DNA of 64,000 nt. Source: Microbacterium murale. GTDB lineage: Bacteria > Actinomycetota > Actinomycetes > Actinomycetales > Microbacteriaceae. The DNA lies in the NCBI RefSeq assembly GCF_014635185.1, contig NZ_BMCM01000002.1, forward strand, positions 434,001 through 498,000. Reading direction: 5' to 3'. Each line of letters begins with the position of its first letter. Positions within the stretch are counted from its first letter, which is position 1. Position numbers and translations under genes: made by a program. The notes below the pieces were generated by a model. It was not told the origin of the DNA, made no database searches, and saw nothing but the letters and a program-made list of their open reading frames with translations. Below, in pieces: positions 15,922 to 45,763 of this stretch.

Positions 15922-18723
15922 CTAGGCCGTCTGTCGCCGGCGACGCAGGGTCACTGCGATCGCACCGGCGAACAGGAGTCCCAGCGCGAGCACGAGGGCT
16001 GCGGCCGGGAGTTCGGAGCCGGTGGCCGCGAGCCCTCCGCCGGCGGCGGTGACCTGGATGTTCACCCAGCCCAGGAGCTCCCCGTCCGCGGAGTACACCG
16101 CGAGACGATGCGCGCCGGCCGCGGCATCCTTCGGGATCGTGACCGTGATCGCACCTGCGGCGTTCAACGTGCCGTCGGCGAGGAACGTCGGGTCGGAGTA
16201 CATCCAGACTTCGACGTCGGCGCCTGGGTGCTGCGCGAGCGTGATCGTCACCTTCTCGCCCGGGGCGACGGATGACTTGTCCACCGTCGCTCCGCCACGA
16301 TTGCCGTCCACGATCGCGTCACCGGGAAGCGGTTCGATCGACGGGCCGGGCTGGCTCCCACCGTCGCCGGAGCCAGGACCCTCGCCAGCAGCGGCCGGCA
16401 GGGTTCCCGTACGCAGTGCCTCTGACGCGAACCCGTCGGCGAACCACCACACCGGACGCTGGCCGTTCGATGCGAGTGAGGCCGGCGCCGTGGCGAAGCC
16501 CTCGTTGTTGATGTCGGGCAGACCTGCCGCGCGTGCGAAGTGCGCGATGCCGGGTTCAGCCGTGCCGTTGAGCGTGACCTGCGCCGAGGCGCCGTGGCAT
16601 CCGTCATCGCACACGGCCCACAGCACGCCGAGCACCGAGTCGTAGTCCAGCGCCATGACGCCCGCAAGGTCTGGGTCGATCGTCGAGACGAGCTGCGCCG
16701 AGCCGTCGGCGGCCAGGGCGAACGCGTACACGCCGCCGTTGTCCTCGACGGCGACGAAGAAGAGACCGGCGTTCTTGCCCGCGTACGCCGCCGGGTCATA
16801 GGCCGCCTGAGCCTCGTCGTCGAAGAGCTTCCCGGTGAGTGCAGCATCCGGTACCCACTCGACCGCCTCGATGCCGAGGTTCGCCCCGACGGCGGGGAGC
16901 CGTGCGGTGAGATCCCACTCGGTCAGCGCGACGAGGTCGGAGCCGGCGCCGTTCGGGTCGACCTGCAGGATCTTGTTCTCGTTGACGCCCTTCGCGCTGT
17001 TGTCGCGCTCGGATGCCACATAGACGAGTCCGTCGGCATCGGTCGTGATGCCCTCGGTGTCGGGGCCTGCGGCGCCGGGTGCGTCAGCATCCTTCTGGAA
17101 GCGCACGCGCTTGCCGTCCGCCCAGCCGTCGACCATCGAGACGGAGCCGTCGGCCGAGGCCTTCAGCTTCCAGATGCGCCCCTCGCCGTTGTCGACCGCC
17201 CAGAGGAAGGTGCCGTCTGCGGTCTCCTGGACGTCGAGTCCTGAACTGTCCTCAAGGAACATCGGCGCAGAGTCCAGCACTCGCACGTCGGCGGAACCCG
17301 GCCACGGGGCGAGCTCGATCTCGCCGCCGCCGTCGTCACCGCCGCCCTCGCAGACGTTCACCGCGCCCTTGGTGGACAACGCGACGTCGATGAACTCGTC
17401 GCCGCAGCGCGCCCAGACGCCCTTGGCGTGATCGGCGTACACGTGCTCGGCCACCGTCTTGCCGTTCGCATCGCGCACCGTGACGGTGTCGCCGCCACCG
17501 AGCCCGAAGTCGAAGTTCGCCGGCTGGTCGAACACGAAGTATCCGCCCGCCGCCAGCACGGTTCCGGTCGGCAGCGGAGTGGTCTCGGCCGCGTGCCCTA
17601 CCGGATCGCTGTCCATCACGGTCCAGCCGGACATGTCGACGGCAGCCGCGCCGGCGTTGAAGACCTCCACCCAGTCGGTCGCGTCGCCGTTCGACTCGAT
17701 CTCGTTGATCACGACATCGGGGCTGACGCAGGCGTTGGATGCTCCCGGGGTCGGCGTCGCGAGCGCGAAGACACCCTCGCCGTCGGTGCAGCGGGCCAGC
17801 GTCGCGGCGGCGAAGTCGCCGTCGATCGCGGCGTGCCCCTCCCAGGGAAGCGTGTCGTCGACGAGCGCACCGGAGACGTCGAACAGGCGGATGCGGTCGG
17901 CGGAGCCGATGCCGATCGGCTCGCGGAATGCCGTCTCGATGCCGTCGACGATGCCGATCGTGCCCTCCTCGACTACGAGGAATCCGCCGGCCTCGAGAGA
18001 CGTGCCCGGCGCGAACTGCCAGCGGTGGTCATCGGAGTTGTCGCGGATCTCGTAGCCGGAGAGGTCGAAGGCCGCGTCGCCCGGGTTGTAGAACTCCACC
18101 CAATCGGCGGGTTGCGAGTCGACCTCGTTGATCCGCACGGATCCGGCGACCGGTGTCTCGGGCTCCTCCGGCTCTTCCGGCTCTTCCGGGATCGTCTCGA
18201 ACGTGTTCTCCGCACCCTTGGTCGACGCCGTGGTGAGGCCCCAGACCACTTCACCGTCCATATCCTGCGCGCCCCAGCTCGGCACGGCATGCGTTCCTTC
18301 CGGCCAGGTGGTCTGCAGCAGCGGCTGGGCGCCGTTCGCGTCACCCGGTGCGAACAGACGCACACTGTCGCCCTTGCCGAGACCGAAGTCGAAGTCGCCC
18401 TCCCCCGTATCGGACAGGGTGTCGATGACGAGGTAGCCGCCGGGCGTCACGATCGTGCCGGCGGGGAACGTGTACGGGTTCTTGTCGCTCTCGTCCTGGA
18501 CGATGTAGCCGCTCAGGTCGACGTCGGCGTCGGAATGGTTGTAGAACTCGATCCAATCGTCGGGGCTGCCCCCGTTGGAGACGACTTCGTTGATCCGGAC
18601 GCCGAGGGACGCCGCGGCATCGACAGCAGTGGCGCCGAAGGCGGTGGTGGGAACGGCGAGCAGCAGGGTGGCGCTCATCGCGCACACCGCCGTCGTCGCG
18701 AACCCGCGTTGCAGGCGTGACAT
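15922..18723 (-). CDS. Sortase-anchored lamin-tail / phytase-esterase-like surface protein
   Basis: 933 aa secreted protein. A signal peptide (~1-30) is followed by three lamin-tail domains beginning VRINEVVSNG (~42), VRINEVDSQ (~198) and VVINEIESNG (~338). The first two are separated by a Glu/Pro linker. A beta-propeller-like region (~480-790; DVQETADGTFLWAVDNGEGR, DTEGITTDADGLVYVASERD) resembles the esterase-like domain associated with phytases. An Ig-like module with GEKVTITLAQHPGADVEVWM comes next. The tail LAATG, a membrane helix and RRRR form a class-E-type sortase signal. A PHO-box-like repeat lies upstream, consistent with phosphate scavenging. The enzyme activity is inferred. Confidence 0.8.
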   Translation of the reverse strand: MSRLQRGFATTAVCAMSATLLLAVPTTAFGATAVDAAASLGVRINEVVSNGGSPDDWIEFYNHSDADVDLSGYIVQDESDKNPYTFPAGTIVTPGGYLVIDTLSDTGEGDFDFGLGKGDSVRLFAPGDANGAQPLLQTTWPEGTHAVPSWGAQDMDGEVVWGLTTASTKGAENTFETIPEEPEEPEEPETPVAGSVRINEVDSQPADWVEFYNPGDAAFDLSGYEIRDNSDDHRWQFAPGTSLEAGGFLVVEEGTIGIVDGIETAFREPIGIGSADRIRLFDVSGALVDDTLPWEGHAAIDGDFAAATLARCTDGEGVFALATPTPGASNACVSPDVVINEIESNGDATDWVEVFNAGAAAVDMSGWTVMDSDPVGHAAETTPLPTGTVLAAGGYFVFDQPANFDFGLGGGDTVTVRDANGKTVAEHVYADHAKGVWARCGDEFIDVALSTKGAVNVCEGGGDDGGGEIELAPWPGSADVRVLDSAPMFLEDSSGLDVQETADGTFLWAVDNGEGRIWKLKASADGSVSMVDGWADGKRVRFQKDADAPGAAGPDTEGITTDADGLVYVASERDNSAKGVNENKILQVDPNGAGSDLVALTEWDLTARLPAVGANLGIEAVEWVPDAALTGKLFDDEAQAAYDPAAYAGKNAGLFFVAVEDNGGVYAFALAADGSAQLVSTIDPDLAGVMALDYDSVLGVLWAVCDDGCHGASAQVTLNGTAEPGIAHFARAAGLPDINNEGFATAPASLASNGQRPVWWFADGFASEALRTGTLPAAAGEGPGSGDGGSQPGPSIEPLPGDAIVDGNRGGATVDKSSVAPGEKVTITLAQHPGADVEVWMYSDPTFLADGTLNAAGAITVTIPKDAAAGAHRLAVYSADGELLGWVNIQVTAAGGGLAATGSELPAAALVLALGLLFAGAIAVTLRRRRQTA

Positions 18724-27538: not shown

Positions 27539-30500
27539 TCAGAACCAGCCGGTGATGAGGTCCCACAGCCAGTCGAGGATGTCGCGGATGACGCCCCCGC
27601 CGCCGCCCTTGTTGACCGTGACCGTGCCGGTGGCCTGGTCGCCGTCCTCCTGAGCGACGATGACCGTGTATTTGCCGGCATCCGTCTTCTTGGGAACCGT
27701 GACCGAGCTGCTGAAGGTGCCGTCGTCGTTCACGACCGCGGTGCCGAGCTCGACGACCTTGCCCTTCTTCGACTCGAGCGAGATCGCGACGGTCTCACCG
27801 GGCTCGAAGTCCGCACCGGTGACGGTGAGCTTCTTGCCAGCGCTGACCGTCTTGGCCGCGACCTCGATGGTGCCGGCGAACTCGCCGCCGCCGTCTTCGC
27901 CGGTGATCGTGAACGGCACCTGCACGCTCGTGCCGTCCGCAGTGGCGACCGTGAGCTGCTCGCCGGTGACGCCATCCGGAACGGTGAACGTCAGGCTCGC
28001 CCGCCCTGCCTCATCCGTGGTGTTCACGATCGTCGGGTCGACGGCACCCGTGGCGAGAACCGTGTCTCCGAGCGAGACGCTGACCTCGGCCGGAACGGGG
28101 TCTCCCCCGCTGAACGCCAGTGACGACAGGTCAATCGTGACCTGATCGCCGGCGCTGTAGCCATCGGCATCCGCAGTGCTGAGCGTCACGCCGACCGCGC
28201 GCTGGGCGAGGTCGGGCGAAGCCGTGCCGTTGGCGTCGAACCAGTCGACCATCGACTGCAGGTCGATCTTGCCGGTGTCGGCTTTGCCCGTTCCCTCGGC
28301 GAAGGTGAAGAAGTTGTCTCCACCGGCCGCGAGGAACGAGTTCGCCGCGACGACGTACGAGGCCGCAGGATCGATCGGCTCACCGTTCAGGGTGATCGAG
28401 GTGATCCGCTCCCCTGCCGTCGCCGTCGGGTCGTACGTGTACTGCAGGCCCTCCGAGACGCCGAGCTTCAGGAACGGACGGCTCGAACCCGCCGGCTGCC
28501 ACTGCTCCTCCAGCACGCCCTTCAGCTGGGCGCCGGTGAGGTTCAGTGTGACCAGCGTGTTGGCGAACGGCTGCACCGTCGCCGCCTCGCGGAACGTGAC
28601 GTTGCCGTCGGCGTCCTGCTCGCCCGTGCCCGCGTACGTCAGGTTCGCCCTGATGCCGCCGGGGTTCATGATCGCGATGTCCGCGCCCGTCGCCCACTGG
28701 TGCACGTCTGCGACGAAGTTGCCAATGGTCGATTCACCACCGCGGTTCTCCGCTCCGTCGCTCTGACGAGCACGGTTGAAGTCTCCGGTGATCGCACCGA
28801 CCGACTCCGCACCGAGGATGTCGGCCTCGGCCTTGGCCGCGTCGACGATCGCCTGCACGTCGCCGTCGGCGTCGTACAGCGGCGTTCCGTTGTCGGTGAG
28901 CGGCTTGATCTCGTTCGTGATCGAGAGCAGCTCCTTCGTCTCCGGATCGACCTGCAGGTTCATCAGGCCGAAGTTCTCGCCGTACTGACCCGCCGAGACG
29001 ACCGGACGGCCGTCGATGACGTGGTTGTACGCGAGGTGGGTGTGCGCCGAGACGATCGCGCTGACGCTGTCATCGACACCGGCGACGATCTCGCCGAGCG
29101 CCGAGTCCGGCGTGATGCTCGCGACATCCGTCGACGTGGCGCCCTCGTGGACGAGGAGGACCAGCACATCGGCCTCGCCGTTGGCGTCGTCACCGTCGGT
29201 GAGATCGTCGGCGACGGCGTTGACCGAGTCGACGATGCCGCGCACCTCGAGATCGGCGATGCCCTCCGGCGAGACGAGCGAGTCGAGCTCTTCCGTCACG
29301 GCGCCGATGAAGCCGACCCGCACGCCGTCGAGCTCCTTGACCCATGCGGGCGCGAGTGCGGTCTCACCGGTCTCGGTGAGGAACACGTTCGAGGAGATGT
29401 ACTCCCAGTCCGCACGATCCTGCACACGGTCGCGCAGGTCTTCCCAGCCCTGATCGAACTCGTGGTTGCCCGCCGCGCTCACATCGAGTCCGGCCGCGTT
29501 GAGCGCGTCGATCGTGGGGTTGTCGTCGTTGATGAACGACGTGAACGTGGACGCTCCGATGAGGTCACCGGCAGCCGCGAACACCGTGTTCGGGTTCGCG
29601 TCGCGCACCGACTGCACCGCACCGGCGAGAACCGCTGCACCTGCCGCGGCGCCATCCGCCTCGATCCGACCGTGGAAGTCGTTGATCGTGACGATGTCGA
29701 TGTTCACCGGCGGGATCTCGCTGGAGATGCCGACGATCACCGGGTCGTGGTCGCTGGAGCGGAACGGCGTGCCCGCCTCAGCCGCGCCGAATTCGTAGCC
29801 GCGGTCACTCCACTCGGCGGAGTTGATCCCCCACACACCAGTGCCGGTGACCGACTCGGCGAGCGAAGGCGATGCGATCGCGTGGTCGAGCGAGCCGAGT
29901 TCGCCGTCGAACGTGTACGTGTACTGGCCCGCGGCCTTCGCGGGCACGAGGTCGGTCCAGCCGGCCTGCGCGAACACGTCGATCGGGTCTTCCTGGCCGT
30001 AGGCGTTGAAGTCGCCGAGCAGCAGGACGTCTTCGCTGCCGCTGGTCTCGGTCAGCGTCTCGGTGAATCCGAGCAGCGACTGCGCCTGCGCGACGCGGTC
30101 GGCATTGAACTGACCCTGGCCGTCGGCAGGCTCATCGCCGTCGCCCGACTTCGACTTGAAGTGGTTCGCCACGACCGAAACGGTCTTGCCGTCGAGATCG
30201 AAGGTCTGCGCAATCGGCTCGCGGGCGTTGCCCCACACGGTCTCATCGACCACTGTGGCACTGTCGCCGACGGGAGTCGCGGCATCCTTCTTGTAGATGA
30301 TCGCGTTCGTGATCACATCGGTGTCTGTGCTCAGCAGCGCCTCCGGCGTCGGGACGAAGTCCCAGACATCCGAGCCGGCGTCCGCGTTGAGTCCGTCGAC
30401 CAGGTCGGCGACGGCCGTGTCGACCGGCTTTCCGAAGTGGATCGAGTTCTCGATCTCCATGAGCGCGACGACATCGGCATCGAGGTCGTTGATCGCCGTG

Positions 30501-32173
30501 ACGATCTTCGACTTCTGCGTGGCGAACAGCTCTGCAGTCTTGGCGCCGCGTGCGTCGGGGTCTTCGCTCTGCAGTGTCGTGAAGTAGTTGAAGACGTTGA
30601 ACGCGCCGACCTGCACGTCGCCGCCGACCTCGGGGGGCGTGTCGCTGCGCGGGTTCTCGGTCGTGAACGTCGCCTTGTAGGCCGCGTCGCTCGCATCATC
30701 GATCGCGATGACCGGCTGCAGGCGCCAGTCGTCGAAGCCGTACTGCAGCACGTAACCGGTATCGGCGAAGTCGACGACGTCGCCGTTTCGCACCGGGGTG
30801 TCGGTCCTGAAGTACGGCTGCTCGCCCGTGTGAGCACCGCTGGTCACCTGCGAGTTCCAGCCGTCGTCGAGCAGGATGCGCTCTGCGCGGTTCGCGGCCG
30901 CGATGGCATCGGCATCCGCACCGGGACGCGTCGTCTCGGTGCTCTTGACGTTGAGCTCGCCGGGGTTCAGCCACAGCGTTCCGAAGTTGTACAGCTGGTG
31001 ACTCGATGCCAGGCGATAGGTGCCGGCGGGTGCCACAAGCATGTTCTCGTAGGTCTCGCGGTCGGCGCCGATCACCGTCTCCGGCAGCGGAGTCGCCGCG
31101 GGAACGCCGACTCCGGCGGTGACGACGGAGACGTCTTCGACGGCCGCGGGAGAGATCTGCGTCTGGCCGAAGTACTCAGAGACCGTGCCGGTGACCGAGA
31201 CGAGGTCGCCGATCGCCAGCGTCGGAGCGAGAGCGTTCAGGAAGACGAAGACGCCGTCGGATGCGCCGGGAGTGGCGTCCGCATCGCCGCCGCTGCCGGC
31301 CGTCTGGATCGAGATGCCCTTGTAGCCGCCCACGCGGTAGTCGCCGGTGACGATGCCCTCGACAGTGACGGCCTGGCCGTCGAGCGGAGAGACATCGGTC
31401 GTGCCCTGCACATCGGCGATCGACGCCGTGGTGGGGTCGACCGGGTCCGTGGGGTCGGTGGGATCGGTCGGGTCGGTGGGATCCGTCTGGCCTGTGCCCT
31501 GCGGCGTGATCGTCGCCGAGAGCGTGAAGTCCGCGCTGTTGTCGTCGGTGTCGACGCCGCCCGTGCGGTTCAGCGACTTGACGTCGGTGTTGCCCGCCGG
31601 CGGCGTCGCCGCGGCGGTCTCGAACGTGTTCGACGTGCCATAGCCGAGAAGGTCGACGACACCCTCTGCGACGGTGACCGAACCGGGGGTCAGGTTCACG
31701 GCCGCCGTGCCCTCGACGAGGGCGAGCGTGCCGTTAGTTCCGCTCGGAGTCAGTGTGGTGACGGCGTCCGGGGTCGGCAGCGCAGCGCCGTTGGTGCCGT
31801 TGCTGTTGCCCTGTACCAGGTAGTAGCCGCCGGCCGGGATCACACCGGTGAGCGGCGCGACGCCGTTGAAGTTCGCCGTTCCCGTCGCCGAGCGGTACTG
31901 CAGCGACATGCCGTCGAGGGTGATGTCGGCTGCGGTCGGGTTGTAGAGCTCGACGAACTTGTTCGTGAACGCGGCGCCCGCGCTTCCGCCGGACAGGTAC
32001 GCCTCGTTGATGACGACGCCAGTGCCTGCTGTGTCTGCGAAAGCGGGCGTGACGACCAGGGAGCCCGCGCCGAGGGCGAAGACGCAGGTCGCGGCAAGGA
32101 CGCCGACGCGGCCCCTGCCTGTGCGGTGAGAGGCGGGAACTGTGAGGTTCCTGCCATCAGGGGCTGACATCAT
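27539..32173 (-). CDS. Giant secreted nuclease (ExeM/NucH) fused to a 5'-nucleotidase
   Basis: 1544 aa. Order: signal peptide ending VVTPAFA (~50); lamin-tail domain (GVVINEAYLSGGSAG); Asp-Pro-Thr linker; OB-fold-like region (VTVEGIVTGDYRVGGYKGIS); an EEP endonuclease domain (~525-820; DLDADVVALMEIENS, LLGDFNAYGQEDPID, SSDHDPVIVG); a calcineurin-like 5'-nucleotidase (~825-1120; TINDFHGRIEADG, AAAGDLIGAS, GNHEFDQGW); the 5'-nucleotidase C domain; Ig-like modules; and a Trp-rich amphipathic end (IRDILDWLWDLITGWF). It should degrade extracellular DNA to nucleosides and phosphate. ATG 32173 has GAGGAGA upstream. A PHO-like repeat lies in the promoter region. Confidence 0.9.
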   Translation of the reverse strand: MMSAPDGRNLTVPASHRTGRGRVGVLAATCVFALGAGSLVVTPAFADTAGTGVVINEAYLSGGSAGAAFTNKFVELYNPTAADITLDGMSLQYRSATGTANFNGVAPLTGVIPAGGYYLVQGNSNGTNGAALPTPDAVTTLTPSGTNGTLALVEGTAAVNLTPGSVTVAEGVVDLLGYGTSNTFETAAATPPAGNTDVKSLNRTGGVDTDDNSADFTLSATITPQGTGQTDPTDPTDPTDPTDPVDPTTASIADVQGTTDVSPLDGQAVTVEGIVTGDYRVGGYKGISIQTAGSGGDADATPGASDGVFVFLNALAPTLAIGDLVSVTGTVSEYFGQTQISPAAVEDVSVVTAGVGVPAATPLPETVIGADRETYENMLVAPAGTYRLASSHQLYNFGTLWLNPGELNVKSTETTRPGADADAIAAANRAERILLDDGWNSQVTSGAHTGEQPYFRTDTPVRNGDVVDFADTGYVLQYGFDDWRLQPVIAIDDASDAAYKATFTTENPRSDTPPEVGGDVQVGAFNVFNYFTTLQSEDPDARGAKTAELFATQKSKIVTAINDLDADVVALMEIENSIHFGKPVDTAVADLVDGLNADAGSDVWDFVPTPEALLSTDTDVITNAIIYKKDAATPVGDSATVVDETVWGNAREPIAQTFDLDGKTVSVVANHFKSKSGDGDEPADGQGQFNADRVAQAQSLLGFTETLTETSGSEDVLLLGDFNAYGQEDPIDVFAQAGWTDLVPAKAAGQYTYTFDGELGSLDHAIASPSLAESVTGTGVWGINSAEWSDRGYEFGAAEAGTPFRSSDHDPVIVGISSEIPPVNIDIVTINDFHGRIEADGAAAGAAVLAGAVQSVRDANPNTVFAAAGDLIGASTFTSFINDDNPTIDALNAAGLDVSAAGNHEFDQGWEDLRDRVQDRADWEYISSNVFLTETGETALAPAWVKELDGVRVGFIGAVTEELDSLVSPEGIADLEVRGIVDSVNAVADDLTDGDDANGEADVLVLLVHEGATSTDVASITPDSALGEIVAGVDDSVSAIVSAHTHLAYNHVIDGRPVVSAGQYGENFGLMNLQVDPETKELLSITNEIKPLTDNGTPLYDADGDVQAIVDAAKAEADILGAESVGAITGDFNRARQSDGAENRGGESTIGNFVADVHQWATGADIAIMNPGGIRANLTYAGTGEQDADGNVTFREAATVQPFANTLVTLNLTGAQLKGVLEEQWQPAGSSRPFLKLGVSEGLQYTYDPTATAGERITSITLNGEPIDPAASYVVAANSFLAAGGDNFFTFAEGTGKADTGKIDLQSMVDWFDANGTASPDLAQRAVGVTLSTADADGYSAGDQVTIDLSSLAFSGGDPVPAEVSVSLGDTVLATGAVDPTIVNTTDEAGRASLTFTVPDGVTGEQLTVATADGTSVQVPFTITGEDGGGEFAGTIEVAAKTVSAGKKLTVTGADFEPGETVAISLESKKGKVVELGTAVVNDDGTFSSSVTVPKKTDAGKYTVIVAQEDGDQATGTVTVNKGGGGGVIRDILDWLWDLITGWF

Positions 32174-32289
32174 CGGTGCTGTCTCCTCGGTCTGATCGAA
32201 CGACAGCTCTCGTGAAACCGTCGTCGTGGTGCTCACAGCGCACTCACATGTTGAGGAGCTTAGACAGCAGAACCGACATCCTCAATGGT

Positions 32290-34644: not shown

Positions 34645-36333
34645 TCAGCGCGCTCGCGCGACCCGGCGCTCGTCCCAGACCGGAGCATCCGACTCGTAGA
34701 CGTCGCCATCTGTCCCGAACACGAGGAAGCGGTCGAAGGAGCGGGCGAACCAGCGATCGTGCGTCACGGCGAGCACCGTGCCCTCGAACCGTGTGAGCGC
34801 CTCCTCCAGAGCCTCAGCCGATTCCAGATCGAGGTTGTCCGTCGGCTCATCGAGCAGCAGCAGCGTCGCGCCGGAGAGTTCCAGCAGCAATACCTGGAAC
34901 CGTGCCTGCTGCCCGCCGGACAGCGAGTCGAACGTCTGCTGCGCCTGCCGCACCAGTCCGTAGCGGTCGAGGGCCGAACTCGCGGCTTCGCGAGGCATGC
35001 CTGCTCTGCGCTCGTCGCCGCGGTGCAGCACTTCCAACAGTGTGCGTCCGACGAATTCCGGATGCGCGTGCGTCTGGGCGAACAGTCCAGGAACCACGCG
35101 CGCACCGAGCGTCGCGCGGCCCGTGTGCGCGACAGCATCCACCTGCTCGCCGGTCGAGGTCACGTGACCGAGCGTCGGGTCGGGGTCTGTGCCGCCCCGG
35201 GCGAGCAGTCGCAGGAAGTGCGACTTGCCCGACCCGTTCGATCCGAGCACGCCGATCCGGTCGCCGTACCAGATCTCCGCGTCGAAGGGCCGCATGAGGC
35301 CGGTGAGCTCGAGGTGCTCTGCGACCACGGCGCGCTTTCCGGTGCGTGCACCGCGCAGGCGCATGTCGAACTCCTGGGACGGCGGACGCTCCTCCGGCGG
35401 CCCGGCCTCCTCGAACTTCCGCAGCCTGGTCTGCGCCGCACGATATCGCGACGCGAAGCCATCGTTCGCCTCGGCCTTCACCTTCAGATTCGCCACGAGG
35501 GTGCGCAGCTTCTCGTGCTGCTCGTCCCATCGACGGCGCAGTTCGTCGAGGCGATCCATCCGGTCGGTCCTGGCCTGGTGATAGGTGGCGAAGCCGCCGC
35601 CGTGAACCCACGCCGACGCGCCCGCGCCGCCCGGTTCGAGCGTGATGATGCGATCGGCCGCTCGGGCGAGCAGCTCGCGGTCGTGCGAGACGAGCAGCAC
35701 GGTCTTCGGCGTCTGCCGCAACTGCTGCTCGATCCACCGCTTGGCCGGCACGTCGAGGTAGTTGTCCGGCTCGTCGAGGAGCAGCACGTCATCCGGTCCG
35801 CGCAACAGAGCCTCCAGCGCGAGGCGCTTCTGCTCTCCTCCGGAGAGGGTGACAAGCTCGCGATAGCGCGCCCGTTCGAACGGCACACCAAGGGCGGCGA
35901 CAGTGCACTGATCCCACACGGTCTCGTGCTCATAGCCGCCGGCATCCGCGTATTCGGCGAGCGCTGTGGCGTACCGCATCTGCGTGTCGTGCTCGTCGCG
36001 CTCGATCAGGGCATTCTCGGCCGCCTCGAGCGCCAGCGACGCCTCGCGGATGCGGCGAGGAGCCACCCGCACCAGCAGCTCCTGCACCGTCTGACCTGCC
36101 TCGCCGTGACCGACGAACTGGTCCATGACGCCGAGTCCGCCATCGATCGTGACGACACCGGCATCGGGTGCCGTCTCGCCGCGGATGATCCGCAGCAGCG
36201 TGGTCTTGCCCGCGCCGTTCGGTCCGATCAGCGCACTCGTCGAGCCCGCACCGACGCGGAACGTCACTTCGTCGAGCAGCGGTCTGCCGTCCGGCAGGGT
36301 CAGCGAGATGGCTGAGATGTCGATGTAGCCCAC
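34645..36333 (-). CDS. ABC-F family ATPase
   Basis: 562 aa soluble protein with two ABC cassettes and no membrane domain. The first has Walker A GPNGAGKTT and signature LSGGEQKRLALEAL; the second has GSNGSGKSH, signature LSGGQQARFQ and Walker B LLLLDEPTDNLDL. The inter-domain P-tol linker lies ~residues 225-310. ABC-F proteins act on the ribosome as translation factors or antibiotic target-protection proteins; which of these cannot be told here. GTG 36333 is the start (GYIDISAISLTL). Confidence 0.93.
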   Translation of the reverse strand: MGYIDISAISLTLPDGRPLLDEVTFRVGAGSTSALIGPNGAGKTTLLRIIRGETAPDAGVVTIDGGLGVMDQFVGHGEAGQTVQELLVRVAPRRIREASLALEAAENALIERDEHDTQMRYATALAEYADAGGYEHETVWDQCTVAALGVPFERARYRELVTLSGGEQKRLALEALLRGPDDVLLLDEPDNYLDVPAKRWIEQQLRQTPKTVLLVSHDRELLARAADRIITLEPGGAGASAWVHGGGFATYHQARTDRMDRLDELRRRWDEQHEKLRTLVANLKVKAEANDGFASRYRAAQTRLRKFEEAGPPEERPPSQEFDMRLRGARTGKRAVVAEHLELTGLMRPFDAEIWYGDRIGVLGSNGSGKSHFLRLLARGGTDPDPTLGHVTSTGEQVDAVAHTGRATLGARVVPGLFAQTHAHPEFVGRTLLEVLHRGDERRAGMPREAASSALDRYGLVRQAQQTFDSLSGGQQARFQVLLLELSGATLLLLDEPTDNLDLESAEALEEALTRFEGTVLAVTHDRWFARSFDRFLVFGTDGDVYESDAPVWDERRVARAR

Positions 36334-37415: not shown

Positions 37416-39203
37416 TCAGTCCGTCGTGAGTTGCTGCAGAGCCTCGGTGCGCGGCGCGTTCGGGAACAGCATCCGGAACTCCGTGCCCTCCCCCTCGGTG
37501 CTGGTGAAGTCCATCGTGCCCTCGTGAGCCATGACGATCGCACGTGTGATCACCAAGCCCAAGCCGATCCCTGGCACCGCGTTGCGCGTTGCCGTGGAAG
37601 CCCGGAAGAACCGAGTGAACAGCATCCGCTGCTCGTCTTTCGGAATGCCCAGACCCGTATCTCGCACGGCGAGGATCACGACGCCGTCCGCGTGCTGCAC
37701 GCGGACGAGGACGTTCCCGCCCGCGGGGGTGAACTTGATCGCGTTCGAAAGCAGATTGTCCAGCGCCTGCCCGATGCGTCCCGCGTCGGCGAGCATGCGC
37801 ACCGGCTGCTCCGGAATCTCTACGCTCAGCTCGACACCTTCGCGCTCCGCGTGCGGACCTGCGGAGACGACCGACGCACGCGCACAATCACGCAGATCGA
37901 TCTCCTGCTTCGTGATCGAGAATCTGCCGGATTCGGCCTGTGCGGTGAAGAGCAGATCTCCGACGAGGTTGAGCAGTCGCTGCGCATTGCGCTCGATGAT
38001 GTCGGCGAACTCGGCCTGATCGGTCGTCAGCGGCTGCGCCGGGTCGTTGCGCAGCAGATCGAGGAATCCGATGATCGCGCTCAGCGGGGTGCGCAGCTCA
38101 TGCGAGATCATCCCGACGAACTCGTCCTTCATGCGCGCGACCTCGACCGCGCGGGTCTCATCCGTGACGACGAAGATGTATCCCTCGGGCTGGTTCTTCG
38201 ACCCCTGCCTGCGGGTCACGGTGACTCTCGCCGGTACCGTCGAGCTGCCGGCCGTCGTCACCTGGATGTCGCCGTCGAGCGGGATCTCAGCGGCGGCGCG
38301 CGCGAACAGCGCTCGCAGCCCAGGGTGAACCTCCGACGGCGCATCACGGTCGGTCTCGGGAAGCTCGTCCGCGATCACGCGAAGAACGTCCTCCGAGAAG
38401 AACCGGTCGATGCAGACGTCATCCAGTGCTTCGCGGCTTGAAAGCCCCAGCAGCCGCTCGGCACCCGGGTTCCAGGCCACGATGATGCCGCGATCATCAG
38501 TCGCGATCACGGCCTGCGCGGTGATGGATGCCCACAGGCTCTCGAACGAATCCAGCAACGCACGGTACTGCCGCTCGCTCTCCCGCAGGCTCGCGACCAT
38601 CTCGACGTTCTCTGCGAGAGCTTCGGTGCGCTCGGTGACGAGGCGCTCGGCCAAGTCTGCGCGCAGACGCTGCTGACGCGAGAGCTCGTTCACCACCGCC
38701 GCGACCGCCGCGAACACGAGAGGACTGATCACTCCGCGCAGCCAGTCGACCGCACGCACCGGCGGTTCCAGGAAGTACGGCGTGAGCACGGCGACAGAAC
38801 TGAGCACTGCCACGAGGACCACATAGCGGATGCCTGGCGCAGCCGCGAGCCAGATCACCGGCAGCAGCACGAGCGAGCCGAACAGCGACTGCGCCCCTCC
38901 AGTGCCGGCGCGGATGCCACCCAGCCCGACGATGTCGATCATCGGAATGATGAGGACGGCGATGCCGTCGAGGTCGCCGCGCACGCTGAGCACGATCGCA
39001 TACACGGTGGCAGCGGCGATCAGGGCGCTGCCGACGACGGTCGCCGTCAGGTCGCTGAACCCGAGTTCGGGGATGAAGGCGACGAGGATCAGGGCGATGA
39101 GGGCTGCAACGATCGTGGGGAGCTGTTTCACGATCGGCGTGGGATTGTCGAGAAGTCGACGCCACGGGCTCTCGATGCGATCCTGCGTTGTCACGGCGTT
39201 CAT
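37416..39203 (-). CDS. Membrane PAS sensor histidine kinase
   Basis: 595 aa. Five to six membrane helices (~28-190) form an integral sensor module; a coiled coil (~190-225) leads to a PAS domain (~230-365; QAVIATDDRGIIVAWNPGAE). HisKA follows with the phospho-acceptor His in MISHELRTPLSAIIGF, then HATPase with N box DNLLSNAIKFTP, G1 DTGLGIP and G2 GIGLGLVITRAI. Last gene of the seven-gene operon, overlapping the receiver gene by 4 nt. Probable partners are the stand-alone receiver and the receiver-deacetylase fusion. Confidence 0.93.
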   Translation of the reverse strand: MNAVTTQDRIESPWRRLLDNPTPIVKQLPTIVAALIALILVAFIPELGFSDLTATVVGSALIAAATVYAIVLSVRGDLDGIAVLIIPMIDIVGLGGIRAGTGGAQSLFGSLVLLPVIWLAAAPGIRYVVLVAVLSSVAVLTPYFLEPPVRAVDWLRGVISPLVFAAVAAVVNELSRQQRLRADLAERLVTERTEALAENVEMVASLRESERQYRALLDSFESLWASITAQAVIATDDRGIIVAWNPGAERLLGLSSREALDDVCIDRFFSEDVLRVIADELPETDRDAPSEVHPGLRALFARAAAEIPLDGDIQVTTAGSSTVPARVTVTRRQGSKNQPEGYIFVVTDETRAVEVARMKDEFVGMISHELRTPLSAIIGFLDLLRNDPAQPLTTDQAEFADIIERNAQRLLNLVGDLLFTAQAESGRFSITKQEIDLRDCARASVVSAGPHAEREGVELSVEIPEQPVRMLADAGRIGQALDNLLSNAIKFTPAGGNVLVRVQHADGVVILAVRDTGLGIPKDEQRMLFTRFFRASTATRNAVPGIGLGLVITRAIVMAHEGTMDFTSTEGEGTEFRMLFPNAPRTEALQQLTTD

Positions 39204-39547
39204 GCGCTGATCCGTCCGAGCGCGTCATGAAGCCGCGCGCCGGTGATCGGCTTCGGCAGAGCCGCGTCGGCGGGCGGATAGTCCTCCGGGTTGAGCACGG
39301 AGCTGATGATGACGAAGCAGTGCGGGAAACGCTCGCGAATCCTGCGAGCGCACTCCTGACCGGACATCCCAGGCAGGATCAGGTCGACGACGGCGATCGC
39401 CGGGTCTATGCCGTCGAACGCGGCGATCGCGGACTCTGCATCCGATGCCGTGAATGCGTCGTAGCCCTCCCGGGTGAGGTGGCGACGCAGCAGCGCGGTC
39501 TGGTCGTCGCTGTCTTCGACGATGAGCGCGAGAGGTCGAGCGCTCAT
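39200..39547 (-). CDS. Stand-alone response-regulator receiver
   Basis: 115 aa CheY-like domain without an output domain. Acidic pair Glu11-Asp12, phospho-acceptor Asp55 (AVVDLILPG), Ser82 at the switch Thr/Ser site and Lys99 (LPKP) are all present, so it should be phosphorylatable. It overlaps the kinase gene and the 53-residue membrane protein by 4 nt each. It could relay phosphate between the kinase and the receiver-deacetylase. Confidence 0.9.
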   Translation of the reverse strand: MSARPLALIVEDSDDQTALLRRHLTREGYDAFTASDAESAIAAFDGIDPAIAVVDLILPGMSGQECARRIRERFPHCFVIISSVLNPEDYPPADAALPKPITGARLHDALGRISA

Positions 39548-39705
39548 CGCAGGAACAGCTCTCGCAACACGACGACGCCGGCGACGATCACCACGGAGAC
39601 GACCCCCTGCCACAGCAGGTGGCGCTCTCTCCTCGCGTCGCGTGCGATCTCCTCCGATTCGGCCGCATAGTCCGATTCGGCCTCATACGATGACGATCCG
39701 GTCAT
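39544..39705 (-). CDS. 53-residue single-pass membrane protein
   Basis: An acidic, Ser/Glu-rich N-terminus (TGSSSYEAESDYAAESEEIA) is followed by a basic stretch and one helix (LLWQGVVSVVIVAGVVVLRE). It was easily missed inside a larger open frame. Its ATG overlaps the glycosyltransferase stop by 4 nt and its stop overlaps the receiver start by 4 nt, which argues strongly that it is translated. It may be an accessory subunit of the glycosyltransferase; there is no direct evidence. Confidence 0.72.
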   Translation of the reverse strand: MTGSSSYEAESDYAAESEEIARDARRERHLLWQGVVSVVIVAGVVVLRELFLR

Positions 39706-41192
39706 GAGTCGACCCGTCCGATCTTCTCGGTCTTGATCCATGCGGCGTCGGCATGACGCCATTCCTTGACGTAAGAATCCACGGTGATGGCGCACAGGAG
39801 CGAACCATAACCGAAGACGTACAGGAGCAGCCCCGCGAAGAAGTGTCCGCCCGGCAGATGCTCGATCGCGCGCGCGAGCCAGACGCCGAGCATCGAGATG
39901 GGTCCCCACAGGTAGAAGATCACAGACCAGACGAATCGGGTCTGATCCGTCAGCGCGCCGCCGAGCAGAGTCACGATGCTCACGAACAGCCAGGGGAAGA
40001 GCGCGATGGCCATGAGGATGAGCGCCCCGAGCCCCGGGAACAGGATCGCCTCGCGCCAGGAGCGCCAGCCGACGCGGGAATCCAGCTGCACGGAGTAGAC
40101 GATGGAGAACAGGTAGACGCACGCCGCGAAGATCCACATGAACCGGAACACGACTTCGGCGATGTCGCTGTGCAGCAGGAGCAGTGTCAGCAGCGCGAGA
40201 GCCGCGAGCAGCATGAACGCGGGAAGCAGCAGGATCGTGAACCACGACAGCCCGAAGACGAAGCTGCCGAGGTTGTGGACACGACTCGGCCGGAACCACA
40301 GTCTGCGATAGATGGACGTCAGCTGCACGTTGCCGCGAGCCCACCGCAGCCGCTGCTTCCACAGGGCGTCGATCGTTCGAGGCTCTTCGGCGTAGACCAC
40401 CGCATGAGGCTCGAACACCATCCGGCGACCCTTCAACTGACCCTCGAACGTCGTCATCGTGTCCTCTGCGAGCGTGCCGCTCGGAATGCGGCCGCCGATC
40501 GCCTCGAGGTTCGCCCGTGAGTGCAACTGTGCACCGCCGGCCAGGCAGGCGATCGCCCCCTGCACGTTCTGCGCGCGACGGGAGGAGAGCTGGCTTATGA
40601 CGTACTCCACGCCGATGAAGCGGGTCAGGTAATTGCGATCGCGACTGCCCTCCGCGATGTACGCCGTCACCGCCCCGACCTTCTCATCCGCGAGGTGCCT
40701 GCTGAGCTTGCGCAGTGAGTCCTTCGCGAAGATCACGTCGGCGTCCATGATGAGGACGGCTTCGGTCCAGTCATCCGCCAGCACGACATCGAGACCGTGG
40801 TTCAGCGTATGCGCCTTGCCCTCTCCGCCGACGTCGCGGCGCAGGTGATTCACTCGTCCCGGATATGCCTGCGACTTCGCGGCGACGATCTCCGGCGTGT
40901 CGTCAGTGGAGGCATCGTCGATGACGAAGACCCTCAGGCGTTCAGCGGGGTACTCCAGTTGGAGGATGCGCTCGATGGCGGGCCCGATGACCATCCCCTC
41001 ATTCCACGCCGGGATCAGGACGGCGATGTTCGGGTGGTACGGCTTCGCACGGCTGTAGTGATTGCGGAACGCGTGCACCGGCAGCGTGAGGAACTGCAGT
41101 GCGGTGTTGATCACGGGCAGGGTACCGACGAGCACGCACGCGAGCAGGAAGATGACGACGCTGACCTGCAGCCAGGTGAGATCAGCGATCAC
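39702..41192 (-). CDS. Processive family-2 glycosyltransferase (PgaC/hyaluronan-synthase-like)
   Basis: 496 aa membrane enzyme that should polymerise and export a beta-linked polysaccharide. An N-terminal helix (~8-38) precedes the GT-A domain with DD (92-93), DAD (150-152), the ED acid pair (243-244) and QRLRW (280-284), the Q/RxxRW signature of processive enzymes. Five to six helices follow (~305-470). The sugar is not determined, but a deacetylase-type gene in the operon favours N-acetylhexosamine. It overlaps the PHP gene by 4 nt. Confidence 0.92.
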   Translation of the reverse strand: MIADLTWLQVSVVIFLLACVLVGTLPVINTALQFLTLPVHAFRNHYSRAKPYHPNIAVLIPAWNEGMVIGPAIERILQLEYPAERLRVFVIDDASTDDTPEIVAAKSQAYPGRVNHLRRDVGGEGKAHTLNHGLDVVLADDWTEAVLIMDADVIFAKDSLRKLSRHLADEKVGAVTAYIAEGSRDRNYLTRFIGVEYVISQLSSRRAQNVQGAIACLAGGAQLHSRANLEAIGGRIPSGTLAEDTMTTFEGQLKGRRMVFEPHAVVYAEEPRTIDALWKQRLRWARGNVQLTSIYRRLWFRPSRVHNLGSFVFGLSWFTILLLPAFMLLAALALLTLLLLHSDIAEVVFRFMWIFAACVYLFSIVYSVQLDSRVGWRSWREAILFPGLGALILMAIALFPWLFVSIVTLLGGALTDQTRFVWSVIFYLWGPISMLGVWLARAIEHLPGGHFFAGLLLYVFGYGSLLCAITVDSYVKEWRHADAAWIKTEKIGRVDS

Positions 41193-41899
41193 GTGACGGC
41201 CTCGCCGACCAGCTGGCGCACGCGCGAGTACCGTCCGACGGTCGAGGCCTCATGACTGTCGGTCGACGCGACGAGCGTCGCTCCGGCGTCGTGCAGTGCG
41301 GCGAGCGCTGCGGGTGCGGGGCATCCCCACTTCTCGTTCACCTCGACGAGCGTGTCGCTCGCCGCTGCGGCCTCGGCCCAGGCAGTGAGGCGCTCACCGC
41401 CCAGGTCGCTCTCGTCCAGTCCGATCTTCGGGACGATGGAGAAGCAGTGCGCGAGTTGGTTTCCCGGGTGGCGTCGCATCGAGGCGATCAAGGCCGTGAC
41501 GAGCTGGTCGAGGACGTCGTCGCTCTTCCAACCCGCGGCGATGCGTTCGCGGACGGCGGTCGGGCTGAGCGGCCCGCCCTCACCGGGGAACTGATGATCG
41601 GCGATCAGGATGCGGTCGATCCCCGTCGGCAGGGCGGGGATGTCGAGTTCTCCGGATGCATCGAGGATCTTGGCCTCGACGCCGGTGAGCACGGTGAGCC
41701 CTTCGGGGACGACCAGCGACCGAACGGCAGCCAGGTATTCGGGCACCCAGGTCGTGCTCTGGCGCACGTGGTCGACGAGGCGCAGCGTCCTCAGCCCAGC
41801 GGCGTGCGCGGCGGCCACGTTCTCCTCGGGCGAGGAGACGGCGTCATCCGAGAACGTCGAGTGCACGTGGTGATCACCGCGCAGCAGCGCGTCGATCAT
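41189..41899 (-). CDS. PHP-domain phosphoesterase
   Basis: 236 aa metal-dependent hydrolase. GDHHVHSTFSDDA (residues ~8-20) gives the first metal motif; GVEAKI, ADHQF, AHCFS and STDSHEAS give the later His/Asp/Glu ligands. It resembles histidinol-phosphatase-like or CpsB-type PHP enzymes. In this operon it could dephosphorylate a sugar phosphate or a protein; substrate unknown. It overlaps both neighbours by 4 nt. Confidence 0.88.
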   Translation of the reverse strand: MIDALLRGDHHVHSTFSDDAVSSPEENVAAAHAAGLRTLRLVDHVRQSTTWVPEYLAAVRSLVVPEGLTVLTGVEAKILDASGELDIPALPTGIDRILIADHQFPGEGGPLSPTAVRERIAAGWKSDDVLDQLVTALIASMRRHPGNQLAHCFSIVPKIGLDESDLGGERLTAWAEAAAASDTLVEVNEKWGCPAPAALAALHDAGATLVASTDSHEASTVGRYSRVRQLVGEAVT

Positions 41900-42885
41900 G
41901 AATCCTCCTGGTGACCGGCGTGCGGAGACTCCAGCAGTTCATCGATCTCGACCACGATGTCTTCGAGGAAACGCACCGACGCCACCTCTCGGAACGGCAC
42001 CCGGCGGGGCAGCTCATCACCGAGGAACAGATCGACGACGAGCGAGGGGATGTCGACGCCGGCTGCGATCGTGAGCGGCAGCGCACCGGGAAAGCGCGGG
42101 TTCACCTCCAGCAGCATCGCGCGTCCTGCCCGATCGCGACGCAGCTGGACGTTGGCCACGCCGACAAGGCCGATGGCCCTGGCGATGATCGCTGCAGTCT
42201 CCTGCAGTTCCTCGTCGTGCACCGTCCGGCCGGCGATCGCGACACCAGAGTCGACTCGCGCGCGCGTGCGGGGCACGGCGGCGACGACGTGTCCGGTCGC
42301 GTCCGCGATCACGTCGACCGAATACTCCTCGCCGGGCAGGAGATCCTGCACGATGAGGCCTTCATCGGTCGGGAGTGCTTCGAGCGCCGCGCGGTCGGGC
42401 ACGACGCGGATGCCGCGACTGCCGGCTCCCTGCCGAGGCTTGGCGAACGCCGGGAACTCCCAATCGACTTCCAGGGCGTCGGGTCCCGCGAGGACGGTCC
42501 GCGGCGCACGCCCGGTCGCCGCGCACCGATCGGCGAGGACGAGTTTGTCCAACGCCGTGCGCAGCGTCTCGGCTGACGGCGCGGCGAGGACGGCCGGTGC
42601 GAGTTCATCGCGACGATCAGCGACTGCTTCAAGCTCGACGTCGACGGTCGAGATGACCAGGTCGAGCCGGTCGTCCGCGACGAGGCGCACCAGCGCCGGC
42701 ACGAAGTCCTCGGACTTCCCCGGTGGAACGAGCCGGCGCTGAGCGGGCGGGACGAGATAGATCCCGCTGGCCCAGCCGTCCATGTCGGCGGCGAACACCG
42801 TCAGATCGTCGCGCTTCAACAGCGATCGGATCACGGCGACTCCTGCGGGACCACCCGCGCCGGTCACCAGCACACGCGTGGTCAT
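41896..42885 (-). CDS. ATP-grasp carboxylate-amine ligase-like protein
   Basis: 329 aa. The N-terminal Rossmann-like part (RVLVTGAGGPAGVAVIRSLL) resembles carbamoyl-phosphate-synthase-like ATP-grasp proteins. PAFAKPRQGAGSRGIRVV, VQDLLPGEEYSVDV and MLLEVNPRFPGALPL carry the ATP and Mg sites. It should ligate a carboxylate to an amine or thiol via an acyl phosphate; substrates unknown. The start overlaps the preceding stop by one nt. Confidence 0.88.
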   Translation of the reverse strand: MTTRVLVTGAGGPAGVAVIRSLLKRDDLTVFAADMDGWASGIYLVPPAQRRLVPPGKSEDFVPALVRLVADDRLDLVISTVDVELEAVADRRDELAPAVLAAPSAETLRTALDKLVLADRCAATGRAPRTVLAGPDALEVDWEFPAFAKPRQGAGSRGIRVVPDRAALEALPTDEGLIVQDLLPGEEYSVDVIADATGHVVAAVPRTRARVDSGVAIAGRTVHDEELQETAAIIARAIGLVGVANVQLRRDRAGRAMLLEVNPRFPGALPLTIAAGVDIPSLVVDLFLGDELPRRVPFREVASVRFLEDIVVEIDELLESPHAGHQEDS

Positions 42886-43928
42886 CAGCTCTCCAGTCGG
42901 GAGGGTTCATGGACGCGAATGGCGTCAGCGGTCTCGCGCACGATCTCGAGCGGCTCCACAGCGGTGCCGCCACCGAACCGCGACCAGTAACGGGCGGTCG
43001 CCATCACGAAATCGGAGGTCAGGTAGTCCCTGTTCGCCGTCTGGCTCCGGAAGCACTCGAGCAGTTCGATCTTCTGCGTCATGAACTGATCCACCCTCAC
43101 GAAGCGCGTGGGCCGATAGTCGATGGTGGCCGAAGGGCTCTGATAGCAGGCGACCGTGCCGACCTTGCGCGTCGCCACGACGGTGGCTTCCCCGACGGCG
43201 CGGTGATCCTGATGGCGATCGTTCGCGGAGTGCGTGTAGACGATGGTCGGCTGCACCTCGCGCACGACCTCTTCGATGAGCCGCACAGTGGGTCCGCCTC
43301 CGGAGATCTCCGTGTCGATGAGGTCTTTGAGGAACAGACGGGCGCGCAGCCTTTCGGCTGCGGCGAGAGACTCGTGCTGACGGCTGTCGGCGTCACCGCC
43401 CTGAGATCCCCGCGAGAGGGTCAGGATCGTGATGTCGTCGCCGGCGTGCGCATGTGCGGAGAGGATGCCGCCCACGCCGATCTCGACGTCGTCCGGGTGC
43501 GCCCCTATCGCGAGAACGACCTGCTTGCTTCGTCGCTCCTCGCGTCGACGACGCCCCTCCTCCGCCAGGCGTGTGACGACCTCGACGAGTTTGGCGCTGT
43601 CGATCGGCTTGGTGAGGAACTCGTCCGCCTGCGCGCGCAGCGCGGCGACCGCGTAGTCGACCGAGACGTGCGCGGTCATGATGACCACAGGCACATCGGG
43701 CACGCGGATCCGGAGCTGCTCGAGCAGTTCCAGTCCGCTCACACCGGGCATCTCGATGTCGGCGACGACGACGTCCGGCGGAACGGCTTCCACCTGGGCC
43801 AGGGCGCTCAGGCCGTCCGCGGCGACGTCGACGGTGCATCCGGCGCGCCGTTCCAGCAGCGTCTTGACGAGCAGTGCGACGTCAGGGTCGTCATCGACGA
43901 CGAGTATGCGAGGAACGTCCTCCGGCAT
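42885..43928 (-). CDS. Response regulator receiver fused to a PIG-L (LmbE) deacetylase
   Basis: 347 aa. Residues 1-125 are a receiver: Asp12-Asp14, phospho-acceptor Asp57 (VVADIEMPG), Thr85, Lys107. A basic linker (~126-136) leads to a PIG-L domain with the zinc motif AHPDD (143-147) and HSANDRHQDHRAVG (a HxxDHxxxG-type motif). PIG-L enzymes remove acetyl groups from GlcNAc-type sugars. This architecture makes the enzyme the output of a two-component system. ATG 43928 has AAGGAG upstream. First gene of the seven-gene operon. Confidence 0.92.
   Translation of the reverse strand: MPEDVPRILVVDDDPDVALLVKTLLERRAGCTVDVAADGLSALAQVEAVPPDVVVADIEMPGVSGLELLEQLRIRVPDVPVVIMTAHVSVDYAVAALRAQADEFLTKPIDSAKLVEVVTRLAEEGRRRREERRSKQVVLAIGAHPDDVEIGVGGILSAHAHAGDDITILTLSRGSQGGDADSRQHESLAAAERLRARLFLKDLIDTEISGGGPTVRLIEEVVREVQPTIVYTHSANDRHQDHRAVGEATVVATRKVGTVACYQSPSATIDYRPTRFVRVDQFMTQKIELLECFRSQTANRDYLTSDFVMATARYWSRFGGGTAVEPLEIVRETADAIRVHEPSRLES

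Positions 43929-44137: not shown

Positions 44138-45763
<1,626 letters not shown>

Follow-up and report, generated by a model that had tools for sequence, protein, structure and literature searches.

A stretch of 64,000 nucleotides from Microbacterium murale (contig NZ_BMCM01000002.1, positions 434,001 to 498,000; here called the window) carries a minus-strand operon of seven genes that we lean, if only slightly, towards reading as a synthase-dependent glycan system controlled directly by two-component signalling. The operon encodes a receiver domain fused to a PIG-L de-N-acetylase, an ATP-grasp ligase, a PHP-domain hydrolase, a membrane glycosyltransferase of family 2 (GT2), a small membrane protein, a stand-alone receiver and a membrane PAS histidine kinase (Table 1). 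The sequence contains recognisable domains, intact active-site motifs, a conserved gene order and co-inheritance of the genes.

From these features we infer a polymer, its substrates, an order of steps, phosphotransfer and a role for the free receiver. The membrane GT2 and its one-span partner would polymerise and extrude a chain of hexosamine type. Before that, the cytosolic PIG-L domain would de-N-acetylate a precursor, the ATP-grasp enzyme would ligate a carboxylate, for instance an amino acid, onto the freed amine, and the PHP enzyme would take off a phosphate; the order (deacetylate, acylate, dephosphorylate, polymerise) and the substrates are guesses. ATP-grasp enzymes couple a carboxylate to an amine, and acylation is placed after deacetylation because the ligase would need an amine and PIG-L chemistry would supply one. 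The membrane kinase would phosphorylate the receiver fused to PIG-L, setting deacetylation directly and without transcription, and the free receiver may compete for or buffer the phosphate.

The operon and its active sites

A preliminary description of the locus had proposed seven coupled genes overlapping by 1 or 4 nt, and all the open reading frames (ORFs) are in place on the minus strand, running from 43928 to 37416 with successive overlaps of 1, 4, 4, 4, 4 and 4 nt. The Pfam hits of six of the seven proteins each exceed the gathering score; neither Pfam nor NCBIfam offers a match for the 53-residue protein.

In the fusion, Response_reg scores 109 bits and PIG-L (PF02585) 83.4 bits against a cut-off of 28.2. 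The receiver has its acidic pocket, phospho-acceptor Asp, Thr/Ser and Lys all in place: D13, D14, D57, T85 and K107 are identical in 39 of 39 sequences, and the phospho-acceptor D57 is retained at every fused locus. The PIG-L catalytic motif comprises H144, D146, D147, H239, D241 and H242, and the role of each residue in the zinc site is presumably that known from work on MshB. The reading frame is open upstream as far as 44051, and the start found in relatives is the ATG at 43928. The protein has no signal-like start, and its single weak hydropathy peak (residues 79–97) falls within the receiver. Because the PIG-L domain sits behind a receiver in a protein of this kind, a cytosolic precursor is its likelier target than an exported polymer, and the substrate of this half should be cytosolic or lie at the inner face.

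The GT2 had been described as processive in type, and its residues bear this out: D92 and D93, the D150-A-D152 motif, E243 and D244, and Q280-R-x-R283-W284 are invariant in 21 of 21 sequences, alongside the predicted spans (Table 1). QxxRW and its companion GT2 motifs are typical of processive synthases. The top NCBIfam model is PgaC_IcaA (TIGR03937), which every one of the 21 aligned sequences matches; the window protein reaches 121.6 bits and misses the curated cut-off of 422.3, and on this score a plain synthase of poly-N-acetylglucosamine (PNAG) was rejected.

Of 56 GT2 loci (two of them repeat records), 50 have an ORF of 43–92 residues with one hydrophobic span behind GT2, and in 46 of those 50 it overlaps GT2 by 4 nt. 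In a control scan of 38 Microbacteriaceae loci, such an ORF came after GT2 in 24/24 cases, after the fusion in 0/38, after ATP-grasp in 0/29, after PHP in 5/29 and after the kinase in 1/36, the five behind PHP equalling the number of loci whose GT2 has relocated. The ORF is not in place at L090, L094, L098, L102, L103 and L107; the GT2 C-terminus carries a similar charged-plus-hydrophobic segment in L103, from Legionella, and a hydrophobic stretch in L107, which by eye looks like a fusion. The 53-residue protein is probably a subunit of the synthase.

The ATP-grasp enzyme, whose closest solved sequence is 2pn1, keeps K114, K149, E260, N262 and R264 in 21 of 21 sequences; it matches 13 NCBIfam models and reaches the cut-off of none. 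Nine positions of the PHP enzyme (H11, H13, D18, H44, E75, H102, H151, D214 and H216) are invariant in 14 of 14 sequences, and we take them to be metal ligands. Ten ATP-grasp loci have no PHP gene, all of them proteobacterial save L101, and a histidine phosphatase gene adjoins ATP-grasp in six of the ten, recognised by Pfam in L106, L107, L108 and L111 and by similarity in L098 and L105. As to the rest, L095 and L101 end at a contig edge and neither phosphatase was found in L096 and L103; L133 is the one proteobacterial locus that has PHP. Since two unrelated phosphatase folds occupy the same place, the comparison suggests that the step at this position is phosphate removal. A merely structural PHP protein was considered and a phosphatase preferred, given the nine invariant metal-type positions and the histidine phosphatase at the same place elsewhere.

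On the signalling side, H368, N483, N487 and the glycine boxes of the kinase are at least 97% conserved in 37 sequences, and its N-terminus has about six predicted membrane spans by simple hydropathy. D12, D55, S83 and K99 of the free receiver are at least 95% conserved in 20 sequences. The kinase is found in 28 of the 30 Microbacteriaceae ATP-grasp loci beyond the window; of free receivers, 13 of these loci have two kinds, nine only the kind that the window lacks, four only the window's kind and four none. Pfam reported no DNA-binding domain among the six window proteins scanned, in agreement with the earlier claim that the locus has no DNA-binding output. Since the kinase and receiver motifs are intact and the locus lacks a DNA-binding partner, the simplest control would act through phosphorylation of the receiver in the fusion. 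The post-translational control put forward in the preliminary description would fit these features; in some distant cassettes the receiver is altered or absent.

Table 1. Genes of the operon and its two flanks, with positions in the window.
Product	Length (aa)	Position	Strand	Remarks
Receiver–PIG-L fusion	347	43928..42885	-	receiver ~residues 6-128; PIG-L de-N-acetylase ~137-332
ATP-grasp ligase	329	42885..41896	-	Pfam ATPgrasp_Ter 107.5 bits
PHP-domain hydrolase, probable phosphatase	236	41899..41189	-	Pfam PHP (PF02811) 34.9 bits, cut-off 26.4
Membrane GT2, processive type	496	41192..39702	-	~5 predicted spans; GTG start; Pfam Glyco_tranf_2_3 111 bits
Single-span membrane protein	53	39705..39544	-	directly after GT2
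Stand-alone receiver	115	39547..39200	-	Pfam Response_reg 52 bits
Membrane PAS histidine kinase	595	39203..37416	-	Pfam HATPase_c 92.6, HisKA 70.8, PAS 28.5 bits
ATP-binding cassette (ABC) ATPase		34645-36333		operon flank, opposite IMP dehydrogenase
Inosine monophosphate (IMP) dehydrogenase		44138-45718		operon flank, opposite the ABC-ATPase gene

Gene order, co-inheritance and catalytic residues

Searching 299 Microbacteriaceae genomes with the PIG-L half gives matches in 61 at E ≤ 1e-10, of which 49 reach E ≤ 1.3e-56; all 49 strong matches prove to be receiver fusions. The fusion locus has both ATP-grasp and PHP in 31 of the 49 genomes and neither in 18, in three of which (G243, G008, G276) the match runs through a stop. 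A separate search with a GT2 profile (E ≤ 1e-90; five candidates scored per genome, as in the phylum-wide sample below) finds 31 of the 299 genomes, exactly those 31 whose fusion locus has ATP-grasp. The link that had been drawn between deacetylase and synthase cassette is supported, and the fusion occurs without a synthase in 18 of 49 genomes. Searched whole, these 18 yield neither a GT2 (E ≤ 1e-40) nor an ATP-grasp gene (E ≤ 1e-15), the latter search having returned no match at all and thus having no positive control; the kinase is found at 16 of the loci and at least one free receiver at 11. Because these genomes keep the fusion without the cassette genes, the signalling part evidently has some other use in them. 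Five genomes of one genus (L167–L171) have a relocated GT2 with no other gene of the set within 13–14 kb around it, and in these genomes the small membrane gene has remained behind PHP at the fusion locus. Judged by its fusion protein, the window has Microbacterium species as its closest named relatives. In the window's own genus the operon is present in two of six sampled genomes.

A scan of named genomes gave at least 80 loci, whose genes were found partly by crude scripts; the copies L079, L080 and L092 were dropped before counting and tree building. Among the matches listed, fusions occur on the actinobacterial side in Microbacterium, Leucobacter, Leifsonia, Cellulomonas, Blastococcus, Thermoleophilia, Frankiaceae and Ilumatobacteraceae, and elsewhere in Alphaproteobacteria, Burkholderiales, Marinicella, Legionella and a Myxococcales bin; seven of the ten proteobacterial ATP-grasp loci come from metagenome-assembled genomes assigned from record titles. 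Of the fused loci that have ATP-grasp (64 once copies are removed and the window is set aside), 54 include PHP, 53 GT2 and 45 a kinase of the window type within the stretch. PIG-L, ATP-grasp, PHP and GT2 follow one another on one strand in 46 of the 47 fused loci that have all four, GT2 being inverted in L102. Cellulomonas, Blastococcus, Thermoleophilia and Proteobacteria have the same set of enzymes, and a chance or local arrangement was rejected because the order is found again in other families and phyla. As to scattering of the components in relatives, which the preliminary description had named as evidence against itself, the order is kept in those 46 loci, GT2 has moved in five genomes and 18 of 49 fusions have no cassette. 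Matches in a phylum-wide sample are confined to 5 of 396 genomes, three at full length including the window's own, so the system is patchy.

The six PIG-L catalytic positions are intact in 64/64 fused loci with ATP-grasp (window not counted) and altered in 14 of 23 without it (Fisher p 1.3e-10 with the window added and kinship ignored). L112, L113 and L120, in which no receiver was found, are excluded from these counts, and 'without ATP-grasp' means none within the fetched stretch for L089, L091, L099, L104 and L110 and refers to whole genomes for the 18 from Microbacteriaceae. Since the site is intact throughout the first group and often altered in the second, with the phospho-acceptor Asp kept everywhere, catalysis is probably needed for the cassette product, and the receiver is seemingly useful even without PIG-L catalysis.

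The same figures bear on an explanation that we regard as very unlikely, in which the kinase, the receivers and the fusion form a signalling switch merely neighbouring the biosynthetic genes, with PIG-L serving as a ligand-binding adaptor. The 18 genomes that have a fusion and no cassette, 16 of them with the kinase, would fit such a switch, as would the 11 of these 18 whose PIG-L active site is changed and whose receiver D57 is kept; against it stand the catalytic residues, intact at all 64 loci with ATP-grasp, and the fact that no fusion-less genome among the 299 has a GT2 of the window type. As a separate observation, the active-site residues are changed and the receiver is kept in L064–L069, L158, L162 and L164–L166, and the kinase is found in all save L166; loci with a changed site and a kept receiver may possibly be a pseudoenzyme switch.

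Several results weigh against a phospho-controlled glycan synthase. The loss of ATP-grasp amounts to five changes on the fusion tree (whose alignment included the catalytic columns), and in five independent pairs the site decays in the same direction in three to four and never in reverse (sign test p 0.125–0.25, with 0.05 beyond reach for five pairs); the PIG-L site is also intact in 9 of the 23 loci without ATP-grasp. The fusion lacks a synthase in 18 of 49 genomes, where the locus is without ATP-grasp, PHP, GT2 and the small membrane gene, and where GT2 has relocated the small gene remains with PHP rather than with GT2. The GT2 score itself lies far under the PNAG-synthase cut-off. As to control, 19 of the 64 fused ATP-grasp loci yielded no kinase of the window type (some stretches are cut), several proteobacterial fused receivers have altered pocket or lysine residues, and the cassettes L112 and L113 carry a PIG-L without a Pfam receiver. 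On the strength of these two loci, phospho-control appears not to be universal among the cassettes.

Export and the nature of the product

A tetratricopeptide repeat (TPR) protein belongs to the cluster in nine of the ten proteobacterial ATP-grasp loci (by Pfam in eight, by similarity in L111), and the remaining one, L095, breaks off at the end of its contig; a full GT2 was not found in the stretches of L105, L111 and L133. The C-termini of eight TPR proteins end on an aromatic residue in L096, L105, L106 and L108, on Tyr-Trp plus one residue in L098, L103 and L107, and on neither in L133; other hints of a barrel are weak matches, to DUF2490 in L096 and to OMP_b-brl in L133. Export of the product is plausible because the TPR part is similar to partners found in known synthase-dependent systems, as these are presented in a survey (PMC7112194).

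A role of GT2 in making a membrane glycolipid or in decorating an envelope glycan already present, with PIG-L, ATP-grasp and PHP as tailoring enzymes and no free polymer exported, seems unlikely to us. Such a role would suit the additional matches of GT2 to the HpnI and HpnB models, both under cut-off, and the window operon, in which Pfam recognises no export protein; the QxxRW motif, the conserved small membrane partner and the TPR partners of the proteobacterial loci argue instead for a polymer.

Less likely still is a small glucosamine-based metabolite made by the logic of mycothiol and bacillithiol. Those pathways use a glycosyltransferase, a phosphatase, a PIG-L deacetylase and a ligase, and the cassette has the same four reaction types. 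The best non-receiver NCBIfam match of the fusion is the bacillithiol deacetylase BshB1 (86.7 bits, missing the cut-off of 182.5), and the window genome, with one PIG-L and no MshC or MshD over cut-off (best scores 266.2 vs 485.1 and 26.2 vs 163.1 bits), leaves the thiol role vacant. However, GT2 has multiple spans and the QxxRW motif of processive synthases, a TPR protein accompanies the set in proteobacteria, and G014, G071 and G143, sampled genomes with MshC and MshD over cut-off, have extra PIG-L genes besides the fusion. A mycothiol deacetylase was rejected as the identity of the fusion, since its own genome has no MshC or MshD over cut-off and these three mycothiol-type genomes have further PIG-L genes. 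The cassette also differs from both pathways in having a GT2 rather than a GT4, an ATP-grasp enzyme rather than MshC or BshC, and a receiver fusion. The GT4 and MshC/BshC enzymes belong to the mycothiol and bacillithiol pathways.

Returning to the glycan synthase, a more specific version of it is advanced with considerable doubt. The cassette could be a sixth kind of synthase-dependent polysaccharide system, found in Actinomycetota and Pseudomonadota, in which the precursor would be de-N-acetylated, acylated by ATP-grasp and dephosphorylated in the cytosol, the deacetylase would be phospho-switched in Microbacteriaceae, and the product might be an N-acylated (e.g. aminoacyl) glucosaminoglycan not yet described.

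PIG-L genes of a more distant group likewise have GT2 and ATP-grasp genes nearby, in L117, L119, L121, L122, L132, L135, L139, L145, L147, L148 and L149; three of these loci (L119, L145, L147) were checked by Pfam. L120 belongs to the same group, and ATP-grasp is absent from its stretch. No receiver was found in frame by hidden Markov model, so that the group has the same enzyme trio without signalling of the window type; its hosts include Actinoplanes, Geodermatophilus, Catenulispora, Arthrobacter and Collimonas.

Described systems and surroundings of the operon

Among open-access titles and the beginnings of abstracts, no described system with this gene set was found; the preliminary description likewise knew of none. 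The 2020 survey (PMC7112194) lists five synthase-dependent exopolysaccharide systems (cellulose, acetylated cellulose, PNAG, alginate and Pel) and calls a regulatory or co-polymerase part that binds cyclic di-GMP (c-di-GMP) typical; its main text contains neither the word PIG-L nor the word ATP-grasp. The operon resembles these systems in its membrane synthase of GT2 type and small partner, and the proteobacterial version in its TPR protein, maybe with an outer-membrane part; unlike them it adds a cytosolic receiver–PIG-L deacetylase, an ATP-grasp ligase and a phosphatase. In the seven window proteins Pfam matches no PilZ or other c-di-GMP domain. Since such a part was looked for and not found, the cassette is not filed among the described synthase-dependent systems, yet it looks to work like one. 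If the proposal is true, a biofilm or envelope polysaccharide system in which a kinase acts directly on a biosynthetic enzyme would join the five of the survey (PMC7112194). PIG-L, ATP-grasp, phosphatase, GT2 and small membrane partner form the core to which both the proteobacterial and the actinobacterial version point.

PgaD and IcaD are small membrane partners of PgaC and IcaA. The window GT2 likewise adjoins a small membrane protein and has PgaC_IcaA as its top NCBIfam model, whereas the operon differs from the loci for PNAG and polysaccharide intercellular adhesin in having no extracellular deacetylase, a small partner with one predicted span and a GT2 under cut-off. For the ATP-grasp enzyme, the best Pfam and NCBIfam matches are ATPgrasp_Ter and the PRK12767 carbamoyl-phosphate-synthase-like proteins; however, there are no Ter genes in the operon, and the protein lies under the cut-off of every NCBIfam model matched. 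Among response regulators with enzymatic output, a receiver is likewise tied to a metabolic enzyme, as in the receiver fused to a BcsA-like (cellulose-synthase-like) glycosyltransferase described in Methanobacteriaceae (PMC5847659). Here a PIG-L deacetylase is the output instead, and several phyla have the fusion; no example of PIG-L output was seen in the passages of that paper that were covered (PMC5847659).

Upstream of the operon lies the gene for IMP dehydrogenase, 209 nt separating its stop from the first operon ATG, and downstream a DUF2277 gene. In two loci of the same genus without the operon (L176, L178), about 2.7–2.9 kb of other DNA lies between the IMP dehydrogenase and ABC-ATPase genes, and in two more (L177, L179) the ABC-ATPase gene was not matched at that place. 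A scan for promoters and terminators across the operon gave no signal exceeding shuffles. Elsewhere in the window, a minus-strand gene at 27539-32236 encodes a protein of 1565 residues that may be a secreted nuclease, with a Lamin Tail Domain, a match to endonuclease/phosphatase and a 5'-nucleotidase C-terminal domain, and another at 15922-18723 (minus strand) encodes 933 residues with three stretches of Lamin Tail Domain and a phytase-like esterase domain.

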